From contig JAFXCE010000037.1 of NCBI GenBank assembly GCA_017521565.1, positions 1 through 64,000 on the forward strand: a stretch of 64,000 bases of DNA. The letters run 5' to 3'. Position 1 is the stretch's first letter. Each line of letters starts with the position of its first letter. Under the pieces are notes generated by a model. It saw only the letters and a list, made by a program, of their open reading frames with translations, was not told the DNA's origin and did no database searches. Both the position numbers and the translations under genes were made by a program. Positions 26,526 to 36,743 of this stretch are shown here, piece after piece. Source of the DNA: Clostridia bacterium. Its GTDB lineage: Bacteria > Bacillota > Clostridia > Christensenellales > Aristaeellaceae.

Positions 26526-27230
26526 GTGGGCTACATCACCTTTGAAAACGTCTGTAAGTATTATCAGACGGGCGATACCGTCGTGAAGGCGGTGGACAAC
26601 GTCAACTTCACCATCGAGAAAGGCGAGTTCTGCGTGGTGCTCGGGCCTTCCGGCGCGGGCAAGACGACCGTGCTCAACCTGCTTGGCGGCATGGATAAGG
26701 CAACAAGCGGAAAAATCACCGTCGACGGCAAAGAAATCACCGGCATGCGCGGTCCGCAGCTGACGCAGTACCGCCGCCACGACGTAGGCTTCGTCTTCCA
26801 GTTCTACAACCTCATGCCCAACCTGACCGCGCTTGAAAACGTCGAGCTCGCGCGTCAGGTCTGCCGCCAGCACGCGCTCGATCCCAGAACCGTCATGGAG
26901 CAGGTCGGCCTTGGCGAGCGCCTGAGCAATTTCCCGGCGCAGCTCTCCGGCGGCGAGCAGCAGCGCGTGTCCATTGCGCGCGCGCTGTGCAAGAATCCCG
27001 CGCTTCTTTTGTGCGACGAGCCGACCGGCGCGCTGGATTCCAAGACCGGCGTACAGGTACTCTCGCTCCTCAAGGACGTCTGCAAAACCTACAACGCTAC
27101 GGTCGTCATCATCACGCACAACGCGCTGATCGCCCCGCTGGGCGACCGCGTCATCCGTGTCAAGAACGGCGCCATCGCTTCCATCGAGCTCAATGAGCAT
27201 CCTGCGGATGTGGGTGATATCGTATGGTAA
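26526..27230 (+). CDS. ABC transporter ATP-binding protein (MacB/LolD type)
   Basis: 234 residues beginning at GTG 26526, with AAGGAGG just upstream. Motifs are Walker A GPSGAGKT, the Q-loop region [20 protein letters not shown], signature LSGGEQQR, Walker [13 protein letters not shown] and H-loop IITHN. The sequence belongs to the MacB/LolD/FtsE-like group that drives FtsX-fold permeases rather than importers. It overlaps the permease gene by 7 bases and heads a four-gene operon with permease, HlyD-like adaptor and TetR regulator. Likely exports or mechanically remodels something in the envelope, for example a peptide or drug. Confidence 0.95.
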
Positions 27231-29545
27231 GCAGACGGGCGGGCAACACGCTCAAAAAGAAACTCTACCGCGACATGCGCCGTGCTGCGATGCAGTTTCT
27301 CTCCATCATCGTCCTGTGCATGCTGGGTACGTTCGCTTTTGCCGCGCTCGACGGCATGGCGCGCATGACCCGCACGACAATTGACACCTATTTTGAGGAA
27401 AACAACCTCGCCAATTTCTGGGTGACGCTCCCCTCGGGCATCGACCGGACGGCGCTTGACAAGCTCAACGCTGTCGAAGGCGTAGAGGAGGTCATCGCCC
27501 GCTCGGTCACGGACCTTGAAACAACGCTGGGCAACAACATCAACGTGAACGTCACCGCTTACGACGGCGCCATGACCATCAACACGCCGCTGCTGCGCAC
27601 GGGCGAGCGCCTCGATCCCGCCGACCTGCGCGGCTGCCTGATTCAGGAGCGCTTTGCCGCCGTACAGGGGCTGTCCGTCGGCGACCGCATCAGCGTCAAG
27701 CTCGGCGGCGAGGAACACACCTTCGTTATCCGCGGCGTCGCTGTCAGCCCGGAATATGTCGCGCTCTCTCGCGGCGTCGCGGCGGATCCGGAAAAATACG
27801 GCTTCATCCTCATCAACGCGCGCGCGCTGCCCATGCTGCCGCTGACGCAGGCCGTCGTCACCCTGGCCGAGGGCGCAAACCCCGGCGCTGTTCAGGCTGC
27901 CATCGAGGCTGCCCTGCCCGACGCGCTGGTGCTGGGTCGCAGCGCGCACACCAGCACCGCCCGCTGCGACAACGACGCGGCGATGTTTGAAAACATGACG
28001 CTCATCTTCCCGATTCTGGCTTACGCCGTCGCGGGCCTGATCGTCATGACGACGCTCTCGCGCATGATCGACAATCAGCGCCTGCAGATGGGCACGCTCA
28101 AGGCACTGGGCTTTTCCGCCCGGCAGATCCGCGGGCATTATCTCTCCTACGCCGTCGTCCCCTCCTTCATCGGCGCGCTGCTGGGCACGGTCATCGGCCA
28201 TGTCACGCTGCCGCCGCTTCTGTGGGATGCGCTGATGATGCAGAGCGAAATGCCCTATCGCCTGCGCCCGCCAATCTCCATCCCCGCATGGAGCATGGTC
28301 GCGCTGACGGTCGTCATGAGCGTCGCCATCTGCTATCTCACCTACCGCAAATCCGCCAAGGAGACAACCGCTGCTCTCCTTCGCCCGAAGCCGCCCAAGG
28401 ACGGCAAGCGCATTCTCTTTGAGCGCATCACCCCGCTGTGGAAGCGTCTCTCCTTCAACAGCAAGATGATCATCCGCAACCTGATGCGCAATAAAATGCG
28501 CACGTTCATGTCCTTTGTCGGCCTGCTGACCTGCACGTCGCTGATCATCACGTCCTTTGGCCTGCAGGATTCCGTCACGCGCCTGGCCCGCCGGTACTAT
28601 ACCTGTACGCTGCGCTACGACGTACGCGCCAACCTCACAGGCCAGACCGGCACCGCAGAAAGCTACGAGCGCAGGCTGAACGCCGACCGCGTGGAATGCC
28701 TGATGGAACAGGGCGTCACGCTCCGGGCCGCATCCGATGCGCGCACCACGACGCTCACCGTCCTGCGCGGCGATCAGACCCTCCAGCATCTGGGCAAGGA
28801 CGAAACCTTTGTCACGCTTGATACCGGCTTCCTCGCCGTCACCTACAAGCTCGCCGATACGCTTGACATTCACCCGGGCGATACGGTGCGCATCCTTCTC
28901 CCCGGCGACGACGAGGCCATTTCCATCACCGTCTCCCAGATCGTGCACAACAACACCGTGCAGGGCGTCTACATGGATACGGCGACATGGGAATCGCTGC
29001 GCAAGGGTGCCTTCACGCCGACGGCCATCCAGATCGCCGGGCCGGGCGAGGGCTGCATCGCCGAGCTCGAGGACATGGACGAAGTGGACAGCCTTGATTA
29101 TCCGCCCCAGCAGATCGCGGACATGGTCGAAATGCTCGACGCGCTGTCCTCCGTCTTCTCCCTGCTGACCGTCATCGCGCTCCTGCTCGCGTTTGTCATC
29201 TGCTACAACATGGGCCTGATGAACTTTGTCGAGCGCGTGCGCGAATATGCGACGCTCAAGGTACTGGGCTATCATCAAAAGGAAATCCGCAGCCTGATCC
29301 TGAATGAGAACCTGATCATCGCCGTGCTCGGCGTGCTGGGCGGCGTTTATCCGGGATACCTGCTCACGGACGTGGTCATGCATTCCTGCGAACCGGAGGC
29401 CGCGTTCTATCCCGGCGTCCCCGCGCTCAATTCCGTAATCACCGCCTGCCTGATCTCCTTCTTCTTCTCGATCTTCATTCAGCTTCTGCTCACCCGCAAG
29501 GTACGCACGATCGACATGGTCGAAGCGCTCAAGTCCGTGGAGTAG
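27224..29545 (+). CDS. FtsX/MacB-like ABC permease
   Basis: 773 residues with the double-FtsX layout. One helix lies near 15-40 followed by a large extracellular domain (about 45-255), three helices near 260-390 (containing LKALGFSARQIRGHYLSYA), another helix near 425-445 with a second external domain (to about 635), and three helices near 640-765 including EYATLKVLGYHQKEIRSLIL. The LK-LG--- cytoplasmic loops are the ATPase coupling motifs. It is cotranslated with the ATPase. Such permeases do not import solutes but move lipophilic or peptide substrates or transmit force. Confidence 0.92.
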   Translation: MVSRRAGNTLKKKLYRDMRRAAMQFLSIIVLCMLGTFAFAALDGMARMTRTTIDTYFEENNLANFWVTLPSGIDRTALDKLNAVEGVEEVIARSVTDLETTLGNNINVNVTAYDGAMTINTPLLRTGERLDPADLRGCLIQERFAAVQGLSVGDRISVKLGGEEHTFVIRGVAVSPEYVALSRGVAADPEKYGFILINARALPMLPLTQAVVTLAEGANPGAVQAAIEAALPDALVLGRSAHTSTARCDNDAAMFENMTLIFPILAYAVAGLIVMTTLSRMIDNQRLQMGTLKALGFSARQIRGHYLSYAVVPSFIGALLGTVIGHVTLPPLLWDALMMQSEMPYRLRPPISIPAWSMVALTVVMSVAICYLTYRKSAKETTAALLRPKPPKDGKRILFERITPLWKRLSFNSKMIIRNLMRNKMRTFMSFVGLLTCTSLIITSFGLQDSVTRLARRYYTCTLRYDVRANLTGQTGTAESYERRLNADRVECLMEQGVTLRAASDARTTTLTVLRGDQTLQHLGKDETFVTLDTGFLAVTYKLADTLDIHPGDTVRILLPGDDEAISITVSQIVHNNTVQGVYMDTATWESLRKGAFTPTAIQIAGPGEGCIAELEDMDEVDSLDYPPQQIADMVEMLDALSSVFSLLTVIALLLAFVICYNMGLMNFVERVREYATLKVLGYHQKEIRSLILNENLIIAVLGVLGGVYPGYLLTDVVMHSCEPEAAFYPGVPALNSVITACLISFFFSIFIQLLLTRKVRTIDMVEALKSVE

Positions 29546-29798
29546 CATGGGGACGCCGATCCGGGAAACTCGCATGGTCGCGTAAGCGCTCCTTGCGATT
29601 TCCCACGCCCGCCTCGCTCATTGCGTCCACTGGACGCGCCCGGCTTCGGTGCCAAACCCGCCCGGGGACATTGTCCCTTGACCCAATTCCGCTTCGTGGC
29701 AGATCTGCAGGGGCGGGGCTCTGCTCCTCCCGGCGTAGGGGCGGATATCATCCGCCCTCGAATGGATACTCACTCCAATTTCAGAAAGGAACATCGTC
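29546..29798. repeat. Intergenic repeat cluster inside the ABC operon
   Basis: Contains a sequence related to 5626-5690 (GCCAAACCCGCC and CCCTTGACCCA shared) at about 29640-29695, and a dispersed GC-rich repeat unit at 29709-29731 (AGGGGCGGGGCTCTGCTCCT), plus a partial GTAGGGGCGGAT unit at 29735. No gene seen. Confidence 0.6.
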
Positions 29799-30839: not shown

Positions 30840-30867
30840 CCCCATCTCACATCAGGAGGTGTACACC

Positions 30868-31452
30868 ATGGCGCTTCCCTTCACCGACGAACAGCGGCAA
30901 AAAATCCGCGCCCTGCTGTTTGAAAGCGCGCAGCGCCGTGCCCTGAGCGACGGCATACAAAAGACCTCGCTGGACGCGCTGACCTCCGACGCAGGCATCT
31001 CAAAGTCCTCATTTTACAAGTTTTACGGCAGCAAAGAGCAGCTCTTTCTTGAGGTTGCCTCCAGCTGGGAAACGCAGATCCTCTCCTCCGCCGCAAAGAC
31101 GCTGAGCCGTCGGGAGGGCATGAGCAACAAGGCCCGCGCAGCCGCGTTTGTCTTTGCCGTCTTTGAGGCGATCCATCAGCTGGGCATCGCGCGTTTCCTT
31201 CGCGAGGATCTCCCCTATCTGAGTTCCTTCCTGCCGGAGCCCGAGGCCAGAGCGCACTGTCTGACCTCCGCAAGAAGCATCTTTGACAGCCTTCGCGAGG
31301 CACAGATCTGTTTCACCGCGCCGGATGAAACCGTCCTCTCCGTGATCCAGTTTCTCTATCTCTCCATCCTCAACATCGGCGATCTGGGCGCCGGCTTTTT
31401 CCCCGCGCTGCAGACGCTCGTGCAGAGCGCCTGCGAGCAGCTGGTGGCATAA
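30868..31452 (+). CDS. TetR-family regulator
   Basis: 194 residues. The N-terminal HTH includes LFESAQRRALSDGIQKTSLD, then LTSDAGISKSSFYKFYGSKEQLF, the TetR signature with KFYGSKE replacing the common YYYF-sKe. The C-terminal half is an all-helical ligand or dimer domain. ATG 30868 was chosen because AGGAGG is 8 bases upstream; a GTG at 30859 falls on that site. As the last gene of the ABC operon it likely represses the promoter at 26435 through the 26470-26493 palindrome. Confidence 0.92.
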   Translation: MALPFTDEQRQKIRALLFESAQRRALSDGIQKTSLDALTSDAGISKSSFYKFYGSKEQLFLEVASSWETQILSSAAKTLSRREGMSNKARAAAFVFAVFEAIHQLGIARFLREDLPYLSSFLPEPEARAHCLTSARSIFDSLREAQICFTAPDETVLSVIQFLYLSILNIGDLGAGFFPALQTLVQSACEQLVA

Positions 31453-31505: not shown

Positions 31506-31535
31506 AAAACGAGGCTGACTTCGGTCAGCCTCGTT
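31506..31535. terminator. Bidirectional terminator between tetR and mgtE
   Basis: AAAACGAGGCTGAC and GTCAGCCTCGTTT flank TTCG. Confidence 0.94.
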
Positions 31536-31556
31536 TGCTTATATCCGATTTTGAAT

Positions 31557-32915
31557 TTACAGTCCCAGCATAACCGTCGCAATCATGAAATACAGCAGCA
31601 GCGCCGCCGCGTCGACGATGGTCGTGATCATCGGGCTCGCCATCACGGCCGGGTCAAGGCCCAGCTTCTTCGCGCCCATCGGCAGAAGACAGCCCACAGC
31701 CGCCGCCAGCACGATCGCAAAGAGCAGCGTGATGGACACCACGGCGGAGATCATGACGCTCGTACCAGAGAAGAGCATCATGCGCGCCATATTGACCGCC
31801 GCCAGCGCCGCGCCGGAGACGACCGCCACGCGCACTTCCTTCCAAAGAACGCGCAGCCAGTTATGCAGCTCCACCTCGCCCAGCGCCATGTTGCGGATAA
31901 TCGTGACCGAGGTCTGGCTGCCCGAGTTACCGGCGGAGCCTGTGAGCATCGGGATGAACGCCGTAAGCACAACGGCCCCGGCAAGCACGCTTTCAAAGCT
32001 GGTGATGATTGTGGAGGAAAGCGTCGCAGAGAGCATCATGATCATCAGCCACGGCAGACGGTGCGCCACCAGATGGAATACGCCCGCGTCCATATATTCC
32101 TCGTCGGAAGGAATAATAGCCGCCATCTTCTTGATGTCCTCGGTGTTCTCCTCGGTAATGACGTCGACGATATCGTCGATGGTGATGATACCGACCAGGC
32201 GGTTTTCCTTGTCGGTGACGGCGATACTCGTCAGGTCGTATTTCTGGAAATCGTCCGCGACGGTCTCCTGATCGTCCGTCGTATAGGCGGATACGATGTT
32301 GGTATCCATGATATCGCGGATATAGGTGCTCTCCGGCGCGATGATCAATTTGCGCAGGGAGACCTGACCGACCAGCCTGCGCTGCTCGTCGATGACGTAG
32401 CAGGTATAGACGGTCTCCTTGTCAATGCCGGTGCGGCGGATATAATCCATCGCCTTGCGGACGGTGAAATAGTCCCTCAGGTCGACGTATTCGATCGTCA
32501 TCAGCGTGCCGGCGCTGTTCTCCGGATAATTGAGGAACTGGTTGATCAGCTTCCGGGTGCTCTCGTCCGCATTGGCAAGCACCTTCTTGACGACGTTGGC
32601 GGGCATCTCCTCAAGGAAGTCAACCGTATCGTCAAGGAACATGTCATCCACCAGCGCCTTGAGTTCGGCGTTGGTCGCGCTCTCCGCGATGAGCTGCTGC
32701 TGATCGCTGTTCATGTAGGAGAACACATCCGAGGAGATGTCCTTGGGCAGCATACGGAAGAGCTTGATCACCCGCGGGCTGTCCTCGACCTCCTCAAGGC
32801 CCTCTGCAATATCCACCGGCAGACACTCTGCCGCTTTTCTCTTAAAATCCTGAATCCTGCCCGCATCCATCAGCGAAAGCAGCTCCAGAAAATCTCTGCG
32901 GAATTCATCCTCCAT
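31557..32915 (-). CDS. mgtE: Magnesium transporter MgtE
   Basis: 452 residues, usual MgtE length. An N-terminal superhelical domain (about 1-130), two CBS domains (about 135-255, TIRDIMDTNIVSAYTTDD and LTSIAVTDKENRLVGIITID) and a C-terminal membrane domain with five helices (about 280-452) are present. The Mg2+-selective pore region is AFIPMLTGSAGNSGSQTS and the closing helix-binding GLDPAVMASPMITTIVD holds the conserved aspartates. The channel gates on cytoplasmic Mg2+ through the N/CBS domains. AAGGAGG precedes the ATG. It has an unusually long leader (about 230 nt) with a small ORF and a terminator; see the separate entries. Confidence 0.96.
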   Translation of the reverse strand: MEDEFRRDFLELLSLMDAGRIQDFKRKAAECLPVDIAEGLEEVEDSPRVIKLFRMLPKDISSDVFSYMNSDQQQLIAESATNAELKALVDDMFLDDTVDFLEEMPANVVKKVLANADESTRKLINQFLNYPENSAGTLMTIEYVDLRDYFTVRKAMDYIRRTGIDKETVYTCYVIDEQRRLVGQVSLRKLIIAPESTYIRDIMDTNIVSAYTTDDQETVADDFQKYDLTSIAVTDKENRLVGIITIDDIVDVITEENTEDIKKMAAIIPSDEEYMDAGVFHLVAHRLPWLMIMMLSATLSSTIITSFESVLAGAVVLTAFIPMLTGSAGNSGSQTSVTIIRNMALGEVELHNWLRVLWKEVRVAVVSGAALAAVNMARMMLFSGTSVMISAVVSITLLFAIVLAAAVGCLLPMGAKKLGLDPAVMASPMITTIVDAAALLLYFMIATVMLGL

Positions 32916-32981
32916 GGGAATTCCCTCCTTCATTTTCAGATTTTGATCCCTGAAAATGCAGGCTATACCCAAAAACGGCGC

Positions 32982-33011
32982 AAAAACGCGCACAGCATCC
33001 GGCTGCGCGCG
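32982..33011 (-). terminator. Leader terminator upstream of mgtE
   Basis: On the minus strand CGCGCGCAGC and GCTGTGCGCG form a 10-bp stem (one G-U) around CGGAT, followed by TTTTTG and again TTTTTG. It lies inside the mgtE leader, about 70 bases before the start codon, so transcription of mgtE must read through it. Confidence 0.8.
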
Positions 33012-33058
33012 CTCTGCCCTTCGGTTTTAAATCGATAAACGGCAGAAAGACGCAGCCG
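33000..33058 (-). promoter_or_regulatory. Candidate antiterminator pairing in the mgtE leader
   Basis: On the minus strand CGGCTGCG (33051-33058, inside the leader peptide codons) is exactly complementary to CGCAGCCG (33000-33007), which includes most of the 5' arm of the leader terminator. The two pairings are mutually exclusive. Confidence 0.55.
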
Positions 33059-33119
33059 ACGGCGCATGCGCCCGGCGTTCTCGGGGTTTGCCCGCCACGC
33101 TACTGGGATAATCGTCCAC
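33027..33119 (-). CDS. Candidate mgtE leader peptide
   Basis: A 30-residue frame starts at GTG 33119 with GGAGGTG spaced 6 bases upstream; an ATG at 33134 in the same frame would add five residues but has a poor site. The peptide begins MDDYP, has KPRERR in the middle and ends FCRLSI. Acidic residues next to proline followed by an arginine-rich stretch recall the MgtL leader peptide of enterobacterial mgtA, where such sequences destabilise ribosomes at low Mg2+. The stop lies 16 bases before the leader terminator, the classic attenuator distance. No homolog is known to me; expression is unproven. Confidence 0.5.
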   Translation of the reverse strand: MDDYPSSVAGKPRERRAHAPSAASFCRLSI

Positions 33120-33154
33120 GTCTTTCACCTCCATATTGTCTTTATCCACGTTTA

Positions 33155-33183
33155 ACAATACGCCGATTTTGCACATTTGTCAA
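33155..33183 (-). promoter_or_regulatory. Promoter of the mgtE leader
   Basis: On the minus strand TTGACA (33178-33183) and TATTGT (33155-33160) are separated by 17 bp, placing the start near 33148. Confidence 0.7.
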
Positions 33184-33206: not shown

Positions 33207-36200
33207 TCAAACCTGATATCCGATCCCCGCGCGAACCAGATAGAGCACGCGCTCCCTGACCGGCTGTTTCGTGATCCTTGCCAGCGCATCCGCATACATC
33301 TCCAGCTGCGGCCTGTGCCGCGCGATCACCGCAGGAACGTCCGCAGGGGAATCCGTCTTGTAATCGACGAGCACCCACCCGCCGTCCTCCTCAAAGCAGC
33401 AGTCGATCACGCCCTGAACGAGCTGTATCTCGCCGTTTTCCGCCGTCCTGCGGAAGGTAAATGCCCATTCCCGCTCCACGCGTGCGCTCGCCAGCAGACG
33501 CACGCCCAGCGGCGCCGCGAAAAAGTCAACCAGCATCCGCAGCGGCACCGCGTCGTACTCTGCCTGCGTCACCACGCCGTCCTCGCGCATCCGCGCCGTC
33601 TGCGCGTAAATCTCTGCTTCAAGGCTTGTCGTCCGCCGCAAAGCGTTCAGATCGAGCATGCGCATCATTCTATGGAACGCCGTGCCGATCTGCGCGCCGG
33701 TCATCGCCTTTTCCTGCATGAACCGCGGCAGGCGGATGATTTCCGTCTCCCGGCCTTCTGTCCCTGGCGCTGCAGGCTCGTCCATATCCGCCTGCGCTGC
33801 GCGCTTCTCGTCGCGCAGGACTGCGCTGACGCTCGTCTTGCGTACGGCGCTGCGCGCATCCTGCGGCGCAAAATCCAGCAGGCGGATCAGCTCACCGTCG
33901 CATAGCGCCGTGCTTTCCAGCTGCGCAAGCAGACGCTGTACGCACTCGTCGCTTCGCCTGCGCTCCTGTATCACCGCTTTTCCCGTGTGCGCATACACAT
34001 GCCAGCGGGATTCCCCAACCGAAACTGCCTCCTCGCGGATCGTCAGGCACGCGCCTGCCTGCACAAGCGCCGGGCAGACCATATCCAGCCCCGTGCGCAT
34101 TGCGCGCAGGCCCGCTGTCGTATCGCCCTGCATCCAGCCCGGCTGCGGCGCATCGCCCGCTGTTTCGCCGATAAGGATCAGCCGCTCCCTCGCGCGCGTC
34201 ATCGCGACGTAGAGAATGCGCACCTCCTCGGCCAGCTGCTCCCGCTGCGTGACCACGCGGATGGCACGCCGCAGCAGCGTGTCGCGTTCGCTGCCCAGCG
34301 CCGTATCGATGCACGGCAGCCCCACGCCCAGCTGCGCATGCAGCAGCAGCCGGTCGCGCTTGCTCCCCCTGCGCATCCTGCGGCCCATGCCCAGCACAAA
34401 CACCACCGGAAACTCAAGTCCCTTGCTCTTGTGCGTCGTCATGATGCGCACGACGTCCTCGCTCTCGCTAATGGCGCTCGCGCTCATGGAATCCCCGCCG
34501 GCGCGCAGCCGCTCCGCGTAGCGCAGGAACGCCGTCAGCGAACCACCCTGCGCCTGCATAAACGCACGCGCGCGGGAGATCAGCAGGTTCAGATTTGCCT
34601 GACGCGCCGCGCCGCCGGGCAGCGCGCCCGAAGCCGCGAGAAAATCCGTCTCCGCATAGATCCGCTCAATCAGCCTGTCCACGCCCTGATGGCGCGCGCA
34701 CAGCCTCCACCGGGCGATCTTTCTCTCGAATTCGCCAAGCCTCGCCGAAAGCGCATCGTCCATCTCCTCGCGATAGCGGCGCACAGCCTCATGATACGGC
34801 ACATGCACATCCGGCGTATGGATGCGGATTCTCGCCAGTTCCTCCTCGTCCATGCCCATCGCAGGGCCGCGCAGCGCCGCAATCAGCGCCTCATCCTGCG
34901 CACCGCTTTCAATCGCCTGCAGCAGCGCCGTCATCGCGCGGATCTCGGGAATGTCAAAGTATCCCTCCCCCGCATCGCAGAACACAGGAATACCCTCCCG
35001 CTGCAGCACCTCCGCCGCCAGCGGAGCCTGTGCGCGCGCCACGCGCATGAGCACCGCCATATCTCGATAGGCGAGCGGCCGTTCTCCGCCGGCCTTGCTG
35101 TCGTAAAACGGCGTTCCCACCAGTTCCTTGATGCGCTGCGCCGCAACGAGCGCCTCGCGCTCAATGGCCGCCAGCTCGCGTTCGCTGTCCTGTCCGTCCT
35201 CCGGCTCGTGCCCGCCTTCCTCCGTCTCCGGGGTGTCCCCGGAATAGACCAGATGCAGCTCCGCCGGCGGGTCCTCGCCCGGCAGCGTAAGCCCCGGGAT
35301 CAGCGCCTCACGCGCATCGTATTCAATCTCCGTCACATCGCCGCGCATGATGCGCGCAAACACGGCATTCACGCTGCTTAGCACATTCGCCCGGGAACGG
35401 AAGTTGCGCTGCAGGTCAATGCGCCGCGCGCTGATCTCCTCCTCCCGGTCATACCTCGCCGCCTTTTCAAGGAAGAGCGACGGTTCCGCCTGACGGAAGC
35501 GATAGATGCTCTGCTTCACATCGCCGACAAGGAACAGCCCATCCTCTCTGGCAAAGCTCCCGATAATCGCCTCCTGAATGGCGCTTGAATCCTGATATTC
35601 GTCGATAAACACATAGCGATACTGCGCGCCAAGCGCCCGCTGCACCCCTTCATGCTGCAGCGCAGCCAGCGCTCCGTGCTCCAGATCGTTAAAATCCAGC
35701 ACCCCGCGCTGCCGCTTTGCCGCCGTATACAGCGCATCGTACGTGCGCACCAGCTCGCCGACGCCCCGCAGCGGCAGATGCGTCAGCAGCATATCCTCCG
35801 CCGCCTCGTCAATCGTCGCGCCAAAGGTCTCCTTCAATCCGGCGATCGCCTTTTTAAGCGCATCCCTGCGCTTTTTAACCTGATCGGCGACGTCCTCATC
35901 GAACAGGTCGCCCTTCTTTTTGCGCCCCAGCGTGCAGAATGCCGCAGTCTGCAGCGCCGTGCGCAGGGGCATGTAGCCCGCCCCTGCCGCATCAAGGAGC
36001 GTATCGAGCAGCGCCAGATCCTCCGCGCAGGCCGCAGCGTAGTGCGCCGGGCCGCCCTCACCGTAGCAGAGTGCATGCGTTTTTTCCGCCTCAGCATGCA
36101 GCTGCGCCAGCTGCTCGCCCGCATCCGAGAGCAGAAGGCGCACCGCCCCGCTTCTCTCAAGCGCATCCGCGCCGCCTGCGCAGACGTTTTCCGCCTGCTC

Positions 36201-36743
36201 AAGCCAATCCCAGGGATCAGGCCGCGTCATCATGAAGCGATGCAGGCCCTGCGCCAGCTCCGCCAGTTCTTCCTGCGTGTAGCAGCTATCCGCCGCCAGA
36301 AAAGCCTCGCTCCCCACGTCGTAACAGGCATAGAGCGCATCCTCCATCGCCTGCCGGGCGAGCACGCCGCATTCCTGCTCATCCCCGATGCGGAATGCCG
36401 GATCGATGCCCAGCGCTTCAAAATGCTCGCGCAGGAGATTTCCGCAAAAGCGATGCAGCGTTGAAATGCTCGCGCGCTGCAGCGCCATCACCTGCTCAGA
36501 GAGCGCGGGATTCTCCTGCGCCGCACGGGAAAGCGCCTCGCCGATACGCTGGCGCATCTCGCCTGCGGCCGCGTTGGTAAACGTGACGACCAGCATCTCA
36601 TCCACCGGGCAGCCCTCTTTCGCCAGCTGCACAATGCGCTCCACCAGCACGGCGGTCTTGCCTGATCCCGCTGCCGCACAGACGATCAGGGAATGCCCCC
36701 TGTCTGTGATCGCGTCAAGCTGCTGCTGTGTCCAGTTCGGCAT
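33207..36743 (-). CDS. addA: ATP-dependent helicase/nuclease subunit A (AddA)
   Basis: 1178 residues, close to the usual 1200-1240. Starts MPNWTQQQLDAITDRG; Walker A AAAGSGKTAVLVER lies at about 22-35. UvrD-type helicase motifs follow (VVTFTNAAAGEMRQR, VFIDEYQDSS, LVGDVKQSIYRFRQAEP, IMTTHKSKGLEFPVVF, ILYVAMTRARERL). The C-terminal RecB-type nuclease motif is WVLVDYKTDSPADVP, ahead of HRPQLEMYADAL. It is one half of the AddAB end-processing enzyme for double-strand break repair. GGAGGG precedes the ATG. The partner addB, normally directly upstream, is absent here; the next upstream gene is divergent. Confidence 0.96.
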   Translation of the reverse strand: MPNWTQQQLDAITDRGHSLIVCAAAGSGKTAVLVERIVQLAKEGCPVDEMLVVTFTNAAAGEMRQRIGEALSRAAQENPALSEQVMALQRASISTLHRFCGNLLREHFEALGIDPAFRIGDEQECGVLARQAMEDALYACYDVGSEAFLAADSCYTQEELAELAQGLHRFMMTRPDPWDWLEQAENVCAGGADALERSGAVRLLLSDAGEQLAQLHAEAEKTHALCYGEGGPAHYAAACAEDLALLDTLLDAAGAGYMPLRTALQTAAFCTLGRKKKGDLFDEDVADQVKKRRDALKKAIAGLKETFGATIDEAAEDMLLTHLPLRGVGELVRTYDALYTAAKRQRGVLDFNDLEHGALAALQHEGVQRALGAQYRYVFIDEYQDSSAIQEAIIGSFAREDGLFLVGDVKQSIYRFRQAEPSLFLEKAARYDREEEISARRIDLQRNFRSRANVLSSVNAVFARIMRGDVTEIEYDAREALIPGLTLPGEDPPAELHLVYSGDTPETEEGGHEPEDGQDSERELAAIEREALVAAQRIKELVGTPFYDSKAGGERPLAYRDMAVLMRVARAQAPLAAEVLQREGIPVFCDAGEGYFDIPEIRAMTALLQAIESGAQDEALIAALRGPAMGMDEEELARIRIHTPDVHVPYHEAVRRYREEMDDALSARLGEFERKIARWRLCARHQGVDRLIERIYAETDFLAASGALPGGAARQANLNLLISRARAFMQAQGGSLTAFLRYAERLRAGGDSMSASAISESEDVVRIMTTHKSKGLEFPVVFVLGMGRRMRRGSKRDRLLLHAQLGVGLPCIDTALGSERDTLLRRAIRVVTQREQLAEEVRILYVAMTRARERLILIGETAGDAPQPGWMQGDTTAGLRAMRTGLDMVCPALVQAGACLTIREEAVSVGESRWHVYAHTGKAVIQERRRSDECVQRLLAQLESTALCDGELIRLLDFAPQDARSAVRKTSVSAVLRDEKRAAQADMDEPAAPGTEGRETEIIRLPRFMQEKAMTGAQIGTAFHRMMRMLDLNALRRTTSLEAEIYAQTARMREDGVVTQAEYDAVPLRMLVDFFAAPLGVRLLASARVEREWAFTFRRTAENGEIQLVQGVIDCCFEEDGGWVLVDYKTDSPADVPAVIARHRPQLEMYADALARITKQPVRERVLYLVRAGIGYQV

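Follow-up and report, generated by a model that had tools for sequence, protein, structure and literature searches.

The stretch of DNA analysed here, referred to as the window, comprises the first 64,000 nucleotides of contig JAFXCE010000037.1 from a Clostridia bacterium (GCA_017521565.1, handle G000; 3.08 Mb in 160 contigs), and our subject is the leader of its mgtE gene. This gene (31557..32915, minus strand) codes for a protein with MgtE_N, CBS and MgtE domains, and the whole leader system lies on the same strand between mgtE and an addA-like gene for a UvrD helicase/PDDEXK nuclease (33207..36743, minus strand), which is itself outside the leader. The leader contains a sigma-A type promoter TTGACA-17-TATTGT (33155..33183, with TTGACA at 33183-33178, a 17-nt spacer and TATTGT at 33160-33155), the Shine-Dalgarno sequence (SD) GGAGGTG at 33126..33132 and an upstream open reading frame (uORF) of 30 codons, which starts with GTG at 33119, stops at 33027 and encodes MDDYPSSVAGKPRERRAHAPSAASFCRLSI. 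Downstream follows an intrinsic terminator (32982..33011) with a hairpin of 10 pairs (33011-33002/32996-32987) and a T-run at 32986-32982, which was formed with a probability of 0.99 in partition-function folding of the leader RNA; a mechanical terminator scan reported just a weaker, overlapping variant of 5 pairs at this site. The block CGGCTGCG (33058-33051) inside the uORF is the exact complement of CGCAGCCG (33007-33000) in the terminator. All of these elements had been described in an earlier note made from the letters alone, and each was found in place. The predicted folding of the window leader beats 200 of 200 shuffles (z -3.2), and scanning it with Rfam yielded no family at gathering score, including the M-box (RF00380), whose absence the note had already recorded; the matches at E<=10 were at chance level. 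None of the 7 genus loci scanned with Rfam contained an M-box either.

To place the leader among relatives, 29 genomes of the same genus were searched, including that of the window. A close mgtE ortholog was present in 18 of them, whereas nine contained only a type of about 30% identity and two (G001 and G021, 76% and 94% complete) gave no mgtE match; G021 may really be without mgtE. The leader was present at all 18 orthologs, with TTGACA-17 in 18/18 and TATTGT in 16/18, and the distance between promoter and uORF varied from 34 to 145 nt. A uORF starting with M[DE] occurred in all 18 leaders, compared to means of 0.5 and 0.8 in shuffled sequences (two counts) and 0 in the antisense direction. 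The peptide MDDYPSSVAGKPRER was kept in all of them with some variation, following approximately MD[D/E/V]..P[S/G][S/N].AG[K/N/E]PRER over codons 1-15 (33075..33119 in the window), with Asp2, Pro12, Arg13, Glu14 and Arg15 in 18/18 and an acidic third residue as well as a proline at residues 3-9 in 16/18 each. The peptide is conserved as far as codon 15 or so, with ..KPRER in the window and ..[K/N/E]PRER in the genus. Up to this point the frame is kept, since the distance from the start to CCC was 33, 30 or 27 nt in 14, 3 and 1 leaders, all in 3-nt steps, and third codon positions were the most variable (8/11 vs. 5/11 and 5/11). After PRER the frame is lost, the distance to the 3' strand of helix P1 (see below) falling into three remainder classes modulo 3 with 14, 3 and 1 leaders. 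Two constraints adjoin around codon 15: the coding frame acts before it and RNA pairing after it. The conserved part also contains codons which are rare in mgtE and addA of the window, where CGA accounts for 2 of 136 Arg, AGT for 1 of 74 Ser and TTA for 0 of 174 Leu codons; nevertheless, codon 13 is CGA in all 18 leaders, and 14 of the 18 have AGT as codon 6. The words CCCAGU and CGA (codons 5-6 and 12-14 in the genus, and also in several class leaders) recur beyond the need of the peptide. This rare-codon conservation could reflect slow decoding or a constraint at the RNA level, either of which fits.

The consensus fold of the genus revealed a helix, P1, which the earlier note had overlooked. 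In this helix, GAAAGACGUGG, consisting of the SD spacer and the start codon (33116..33126), pairs with CTGCGTCTTTC in the distal half of the uORF (33045..33055). P1 has 11 bp with 96% of the cells paired, compared to 42-61% in slid registers, and none of 500 shuffles equalled it. Four of its pairs were changed on both sides, amounting to 5 cells in 3 leaders (three in L007 and the others in L013 and L016). P1 encloses a domain of 60 nt with further predicted hairpins, and its 3' strand overlaps the 5' arm of the antiterminator, which makes the two helices mutually exclusive. The antiterminator itself proved to be longer than the 8 bases originally noticed, extending over about 20 bp between a 5' arm at about 33059-33037, which contains 33051-33058, and a 3' arm at about 33023-33000, which overlaps the 5' arm of the terminator. 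Its pairing energy of -31.3 kcal/mol was not reached by any of 200 shuffles, and a slightly different segment gave -33.3 with a z of -6.0; an antiterminator consisting of a mere 8-bp match is therefore ruled out in the window. Among the genus leaders, the antiterminator pairing was better than in shuffles (<=0.05) in 5 of 18, with a mean z of -1.5, and this is the weakest comparative result within the genus.

The predicted switch was analysed by folding the RNA up to the T-run while progressively removing its 5' end, to mimic coverage by a ribosome; the 3' edge of this ribosome was placed 16 nt downstream of the first base in the P-site. For the window, free RNA gave a terminator probability of 0.99. 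With the P-site within codons 2-16 it fell mostly to 0-0.2 (codon 14 gave 0.5), and once codon 17 was reached it returned to 1.0; the predicted ON zone thus coincides with the conserved peptide. Leaders L009 and L015 showed profiles like that of the window, those of L007, L011 and L013 were shallower, those of L010 and L016 narrower, and L019 came down no further than 0.3-0.4, at codons 13-14. Using a second terminator finder, we observed a terminator switch (above 0.6 in free RNA, minimum below 0.3 at codons 4-16) in 8 of the 17 leaders of the genus that have a terminator; the genus mean started at 0.62 in free RNA, fell to 0.26 with the ribosome at codon 13 and recovered to 0.66 by codon 19. 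Alternative downstream pairing of the 3' strand of P1 gave a mean z of -1.7 in 13 genus leaders, compared to -0.7 in the control. Conservation of the uORF, its frame and P1 is shown by these comparisons, and the folding predictions switch in the window and in roughly half of its genus. The terminator/antiterminator logic suggested in the note is reproduced by the folding of the window, with the corrections that the pairing is longer and that P1 takes part in it.

The wider comparison drew on 283 collected mgtE leaders, those of the genus included, for which the best matches plus part of the others were taken as loci. As uORFs we counted SD-preceded frames of 15-60 aa starting with M[DE] within 430 nt of mgtE. 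A looser first count, which kept 267 of the 283 leaders (2 were too short, 14 near-duplicates) and still contained some duplicates and M-box ORFs, gave 18/18 for the genus and 102/152 and 61/97 for the remaining leaders. After removal of near-duplicates and ORFs inside M-boxes, the recount of 264 leaders gave uORFs in 18/18 leaders of the genus, 99/149 of the family/order, 44/71 of named Clostridia contigs and 16/26 of other orders of the class. The corresponding means in shuffles were 0.8, 3.6, 1.3 and 1.3 (a rate of 2-5% outside the genus), and the antisense counts 0, 1, 0 and 1. The named contigs (L175-L254) were the best 80 matches and may include the window's own order; L175 is a near-duplicate of the same-genus leader L008. 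Outside the genus, about one third of the leaders show no uORF by the M[DE] rule, which misses or mis-starts L187 and L204 (MKMD starts), L015 (an earlier in-frame start) and L022, all left uncorrected. The remaining classes of the phylum were represented by the 26 leaders whose mgtE was most similar; 14 of these, counted without a shuffle control, contained a uORF, e.g., MDPLPRR, MDADPGSS or MDPSPLPSS.

The peptides recurring in these groups include MDDGGRC..GVPRS, MDDHGHDAGVPRS and MDAGSSSG..VGRR in the family/order and MDSGPLPS, MDPGPLPS, MDSSPLPD, MDYDPLPI and MDSYPEPSS in the class. The conservation of frame and peptide in relatives, which the earlier note had proposed to look for, is thus found in the genus and recurs widely beyond it. 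The acidic-then-basic pattern it had likened to MgtL is borne out as well by peptides such as MDSGPLP and MDPLPRR, found in front of mgtE in the class at large and also outside it, and by the net charges: the first 8 residues average -1.83 in the genus, -1.05 in the family/order and -1.03 in L175-L283, and the rest of the peptide +2.39, +1.48 and +2.29, respectively. Because the uORFs were chosen by M[DE], Asp2 or Glu2 and the acidic start are partly built in, the same rule being applied in the shuffle and antisense controls. Proline at residues 3-9 is present in 14/26 of the other orders. Cultured carriers of such uORFs are Tissierella praeacuta (L204), [Clostridium] viride (L237), Thermotalea metallivorans (L181) and Caldicoprobacter oshimai (L254). 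Frame-dependent patterns were also seen in the wider set of uORF leaders: stops within 20 codons occurred in 2, 79 and 154 of 192 leaders, the genus included, in frames 0, 1 and 2 (frame 0 being conditioned on at least 15 aa), CGA was distributed 122/40/72 over these frames in the other 174 selected leaders, 76 of 111 family/order uORFs carried CGA in frame behind CCN or GGN, and the CGA-anchored family/order set showed entropies of 0.80, 0.93 and 1.45 at the three codon positions. The class motif ATGGAYTCNGGNCCNYTNCC gave 8 matches in 7 of 293 class genomes, all of them upstream of mgtE at 87-106 nt from its aligned start, and none in the reversed control. The same peptide was also sought before other genes, using a MDDGxRC-type pattern on 200 family genomes. 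Of its 24 matches, 19 lay just upstream of mgtE, and the 5 elsewhere were at chance level (reversed control 7), the one in G021 being inside a longer reading frame. The three leaders looked at from the second MgtE type (about 30% identical; L142-L144) carried MDG-type uORFs, namely MDGHDSTGDV.., MDGGSSSRNPDG.. and MDGQDSTGHD...

P1 recurred together with the uORF. Its test compared the piece from -12 to +6 around the uORF start with +30 to +150 against shuffles, using 192 uORF leaders chosen by M[DE], MGD or MSD. The mean z was -2.5 in the genus (18), -2.02 in the family/order (107), -2.92 in the named contigs (46) and -3.55 in other orders (16), whereas a control piece 60-42 nt upstream gave -0.06 (191 leaders). 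A rank within the best 2.5% of shuffles was reached by 11/18, 49/107, 29/46 and 13/16 leaders, respectively, and the 14 uORF-bearing leaders of the phylum's other classes showed a mean z of -3.9. In the 125 leaders with a z below -1.5, the 3' strand of P1 started within the uORF in 98-100% of the cases. L209, L233, L259, L273 and L314 have helices of 13-18 bp that are built from unrelated bases and place the partner at about +45 to +81; recurrence with unrelated bases amounts to covariation on the scale of the phylum. By this comparison, the uORF is predicted to hide its start codon with its own distal codons across the phylum.

Rfam scans of relatives covered 17, 20 and 20 loci, and an M-box was located upstream of mgtE in 5/20 and 7/20 of the class loci. 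In 10 of these 12 loci a D-P type uORF lay between M-box and mgtE by position, which indicates that both devices can be stacked. The order of M-box, acidic/proline uORF and mgtE was noted in L178, L181, L185, L209, L259, L261, L262, L265, L273 and L281. The mgtE locus of one of these class relatives also contains a match to the NiCo riboswitch (L273:349-436, 52.7 bits).

The reading we consider probable is that the mgtE leader is a ribosome-operated transcription attenuator made of three exclusive helices, in which trouble of the ribosome at codons 2-16 switches mgtE on and low Mg2+ is the proposed signal. P1 would represent helix 1:2 between the start region and the distal codons, the antiterminator helix 2:3 between the distal codons and the 5' arm of the terminator, and the terminator helix 3:4. 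If no ribosome is present, P1 would form, followed by the terminator, and mgtE would be off; if the uORF is read smoothly to its stop, the ribosome would cover region 2, again allowing the terminator and keeping mgtE off. Only if codons 2-16 are occupied and not passed, by a paused ribosome or by failing ones that are replaced, would P1 be blocked and region 2 be free to form the antiterminator. The earlier note had assumed that early drop-off alone frees the antiterminator. With P1 taken into account this does not hold, as ribosome-free RNA is predicted to be off (terminator 0.99): drop-off alone lets P1 reform, so that simple drop-off is insufficient and the ON state needs codons 2-16 to be kept occupied by paused or successive ribosomes. 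As signal, low cytosolic Mg2+ may cause ribosomes to fail on the acidic, proline-containing, rare-codon start MDDYP(AGU)S..P(CGA)ER, as proposed for MgtL and MgtQ. Translation, termination and the behaviour of the ribosome are deduced here along with the signal. The attenuator architecture as such we hold to be highly probable, and Mg2+ as its signal reasonably likely.

Several results weigh against this reading. The pairing conservation with compensatory changes which the note had suggested looking for is strong for P1 and found only in part for the antiterminator, which stayed at chance level (>=0.28) in 6 of the 18 leaders of the genus, and three of the four double-changed pairs of P1 rest on the single leader L007. 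A ribosome at codon 1 alone leaves the terminator probability of the window at 1.0 in the model. Within the genus, the profile was weak in L005 and L030, L012 and L014 were antiterminated even when free, the chosen hairpin never formed in L002-L004 and L006, and no terminator was found in L008. Beyond the genus, a terminator switch appeared in 13/49 family/order and 2/13 class leaders with a terminator, while the mean probability rose slightly, from 0.61 in free RNA to 0.64-0.71 at codons 4-16 in the family/order and from 0.55 to 0.70-0.78 in the class. That all relatives share a terminator/antiterminator switch is thus unsupported, and we slightly lowered our confidence in the attenuator reading because the mean folding outside the genus runs slightly against it. 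A general switch by sequestration of the mgtE SD showed no consistent change either in 34 class leaders with short spacing (0.51 in free RNA vs. 0.47-0.55). Outside the genus, few family/order leaders have a proline at residues 3-9 (8/149). Finally, the proposed response to Mg2+ is suggested by the identity of the gene and the resemblance to MgtL, and whether Mg2+ or proline is the signal of MgtL-type frames is itself disputed (PMC3641672). A general alternative partner downstream for the 3' strand of P1 was rejected as well, as its score did not stand out in the family/order (-0.1 in 67 leaders, control -0.1) or the class (-0.5 in 45, control -0.3).

The same attenuator might respond to another signal, slow decoding of the rare codons AGT, CGA and TTA or uncharged tRNA(Pro/Arg) reporting on translation speed or on amino-acid or osmotic status instead of Mg2+. 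This is rather unlikely in our judgement, even if the persistence of CGA and AGT at fixed codons of the genus and the preference of CGA for frame 0 elsewhere would fit such a device, and although proline limitation acts on Salmonella mgtP and the authors of that study argued against Mg2+ for the mgtA ORF (PMC3641672). A run of a single amino acid, as in attenuators of the trp type, is absent from the window and genus peptides, the peptide start has a negative mean charge in each of the groups, partly by virtue of the M[DE] rule, and all 8 exact matches of the class motif precede mgtE. We consider it less likely still that P1 closes the ligand domain of a translation-independent riboswitch for Mg2+ or another ligand, whose stabilisation would free the terminator and for which the ORF would be incidental. 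Nucleotides are indeed conserved beyond the coding need, with CCCCGAGAACG invariant in 18/18 genus leaders and the fixed CGA, and P1 does close a 60-nt domain with hairpins of its own. However, indels of 3 nt keep the frame up to PRER and not after it, third positions vary most in the genus as well as in the family/order, and no Rfam family matches at gathering score. The sequence enclosed by P1 is, by eye, not conserved between families except for the start of the peptide, which speaks against a shared aptamer. That there is just an ordinary promoter and terminator between addA and mgtE, with the complementarity and the short ORF arising by chance, is scarcely credible: spurious ORFs are frequent in a GC-rich genome and complementarities of 8 bases are cheap, but the conservation of uORF and P1 and their shuffle and antisense controls already contradict it.

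Among known systems, the closest in peptide is enterobacterial MgtL, where low Mg2+ leads to ribosome failure on EPDP and thereby prevents Rho termination before mgtA, and at higher Mg2+ translation can be completed and the gene repressed (PMC11552253, PMC11282234), although an earlier paper named proline rather than Mg2+ as the signal of the mgtA ORF (PMC3641672). Both have a uORF before a Mg2+ transporter with an acidic/proline start (EPDP vs. MDDYP, MDSGPLP and MDPLPRR), and in both completed translation would be off and failed elongation on. The differences are the transporter (MgtE, not MgtA), the phylum, the predicted intrinsic terminator of the window compared to the reported Rho dependence, and the start codon hidden by P1. 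MgtQ acts via Asp2 and Glu5 of an 8-codon uORF and stem-loops 1:2, 2:3 and 3:4, opposed by L31; a ribosome on region 1 favours 2:3, which frees the mgtB SD and turns the transporter on (PMC8092293). The window shares, by prediction, a uORF inside the same arrangement of alternative helices, whereas MgtQ has 8 aa and controls SD accessibility and the window about 30 aa and a terminator. An SD-preceded short ORF at a Mg2+ transporter gene and acidic/proline first codons are accordingly present here as in MgtL and MgtQ, and exclusive helices depending on ribosome position are predicted for the window and the 8 of 17 genus leaders mentioned above. CorL, the uORF of E. coli and Salmonella corA, is likewise linked to Mg2+ and has two alternative leader structures (PMC11552253), features which the window is proposed to share; it is Rho-dependent, is reported to contain a single proline and serves another transporter.

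The M-box (ykoK leader, RF00380) lies upstream of the uORF at mgtE of some relatives and is absent from the window leader. M. abscessus mgtE and M. tuberculosis pe20 have M-box uORFs encoding a vcgB homolog or mycobacteria-specific peptides (PMC4974804, PMC12810186). They share a uORF near an mgtE M-box with some of our relatives, but are M-box driven and have different peptides. The statement of the earlier note that no mgtE case was described was too strong in view of the M. abscessus uORF (PMC4974804), though that one is different. The "mgtE motif" of Thioalkalivibrio, reported only there, is also a structured RNA before mgtE, but is classed as a riboswitch candidate and not as a uORF (PMC11109978). 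In open-access PMC text, outside of which lie most subscription papers and all preprints, we found no Clostridia mgtE leader peptide of this kind. On paper, the leader combines a helix logic like that of MgtQ and a peptide like that of MgtL with an intrinsic terminator and another transporter, and it is not called a member of either by descent. It is probably an undescribed, convergent counterpart of enterobacterial MgtL/MgtQ.

With a slight lean in its favour, we extend this to an undescribed, phylum-wide class of ribosome-operated Mg2+ sensors on mgtE in Clostridia and neighbouring classes. Its core would be an acidic-start uORF with SD and start hidden by P1, independent of MgtL/MgtQ, sometimes placed behind an M-box, and with lineage-specific outputs such as the intrinsic terminator in the genus of the window. 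MgtL-type sensing, in which nascent chains that are hard to translate let the ribosome itself report Mg2+, is described for enterobacterial mgtA and mgtB; a counterpart on mgtE would concern a different transporter gene. If true, it would suggest that ribosome stability serves generally as a gauge of Mg2+, arrived at by independent routes, and it might account for the control of mgtE where no M-box is present as well as for the tandem M-box/uORF leaders. The 187 deduplicated candidate leader peptides and 14 from other classes are a resource for learning about ribosome-destabilising nascent chains.

Further structures were noted around the gene. A hairpin CCTGCATTTTC..GAAAATGAAGG (32925..32962, within the region 32913-32963, minus strand) overlaps the mgtE SD and is similar in the other 17 genus leaders, typically as CCTGCATTTTC-loop-GAAAATGATAGGAGG; it is possibly a second, translational layer of control. 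A terminator-like hairpin of 13 pairs (31507-31536) is located between mgtE and a convergent TetR-family gene (30859-31452, plus strand). Very long ORFs run antisense to other long ORFs at 27089-29575 (minus) and 31551-33038 (plus), which is probably an effect of the high GC content; the latter crosses the mgtE leader and could mislead automatic annotation.

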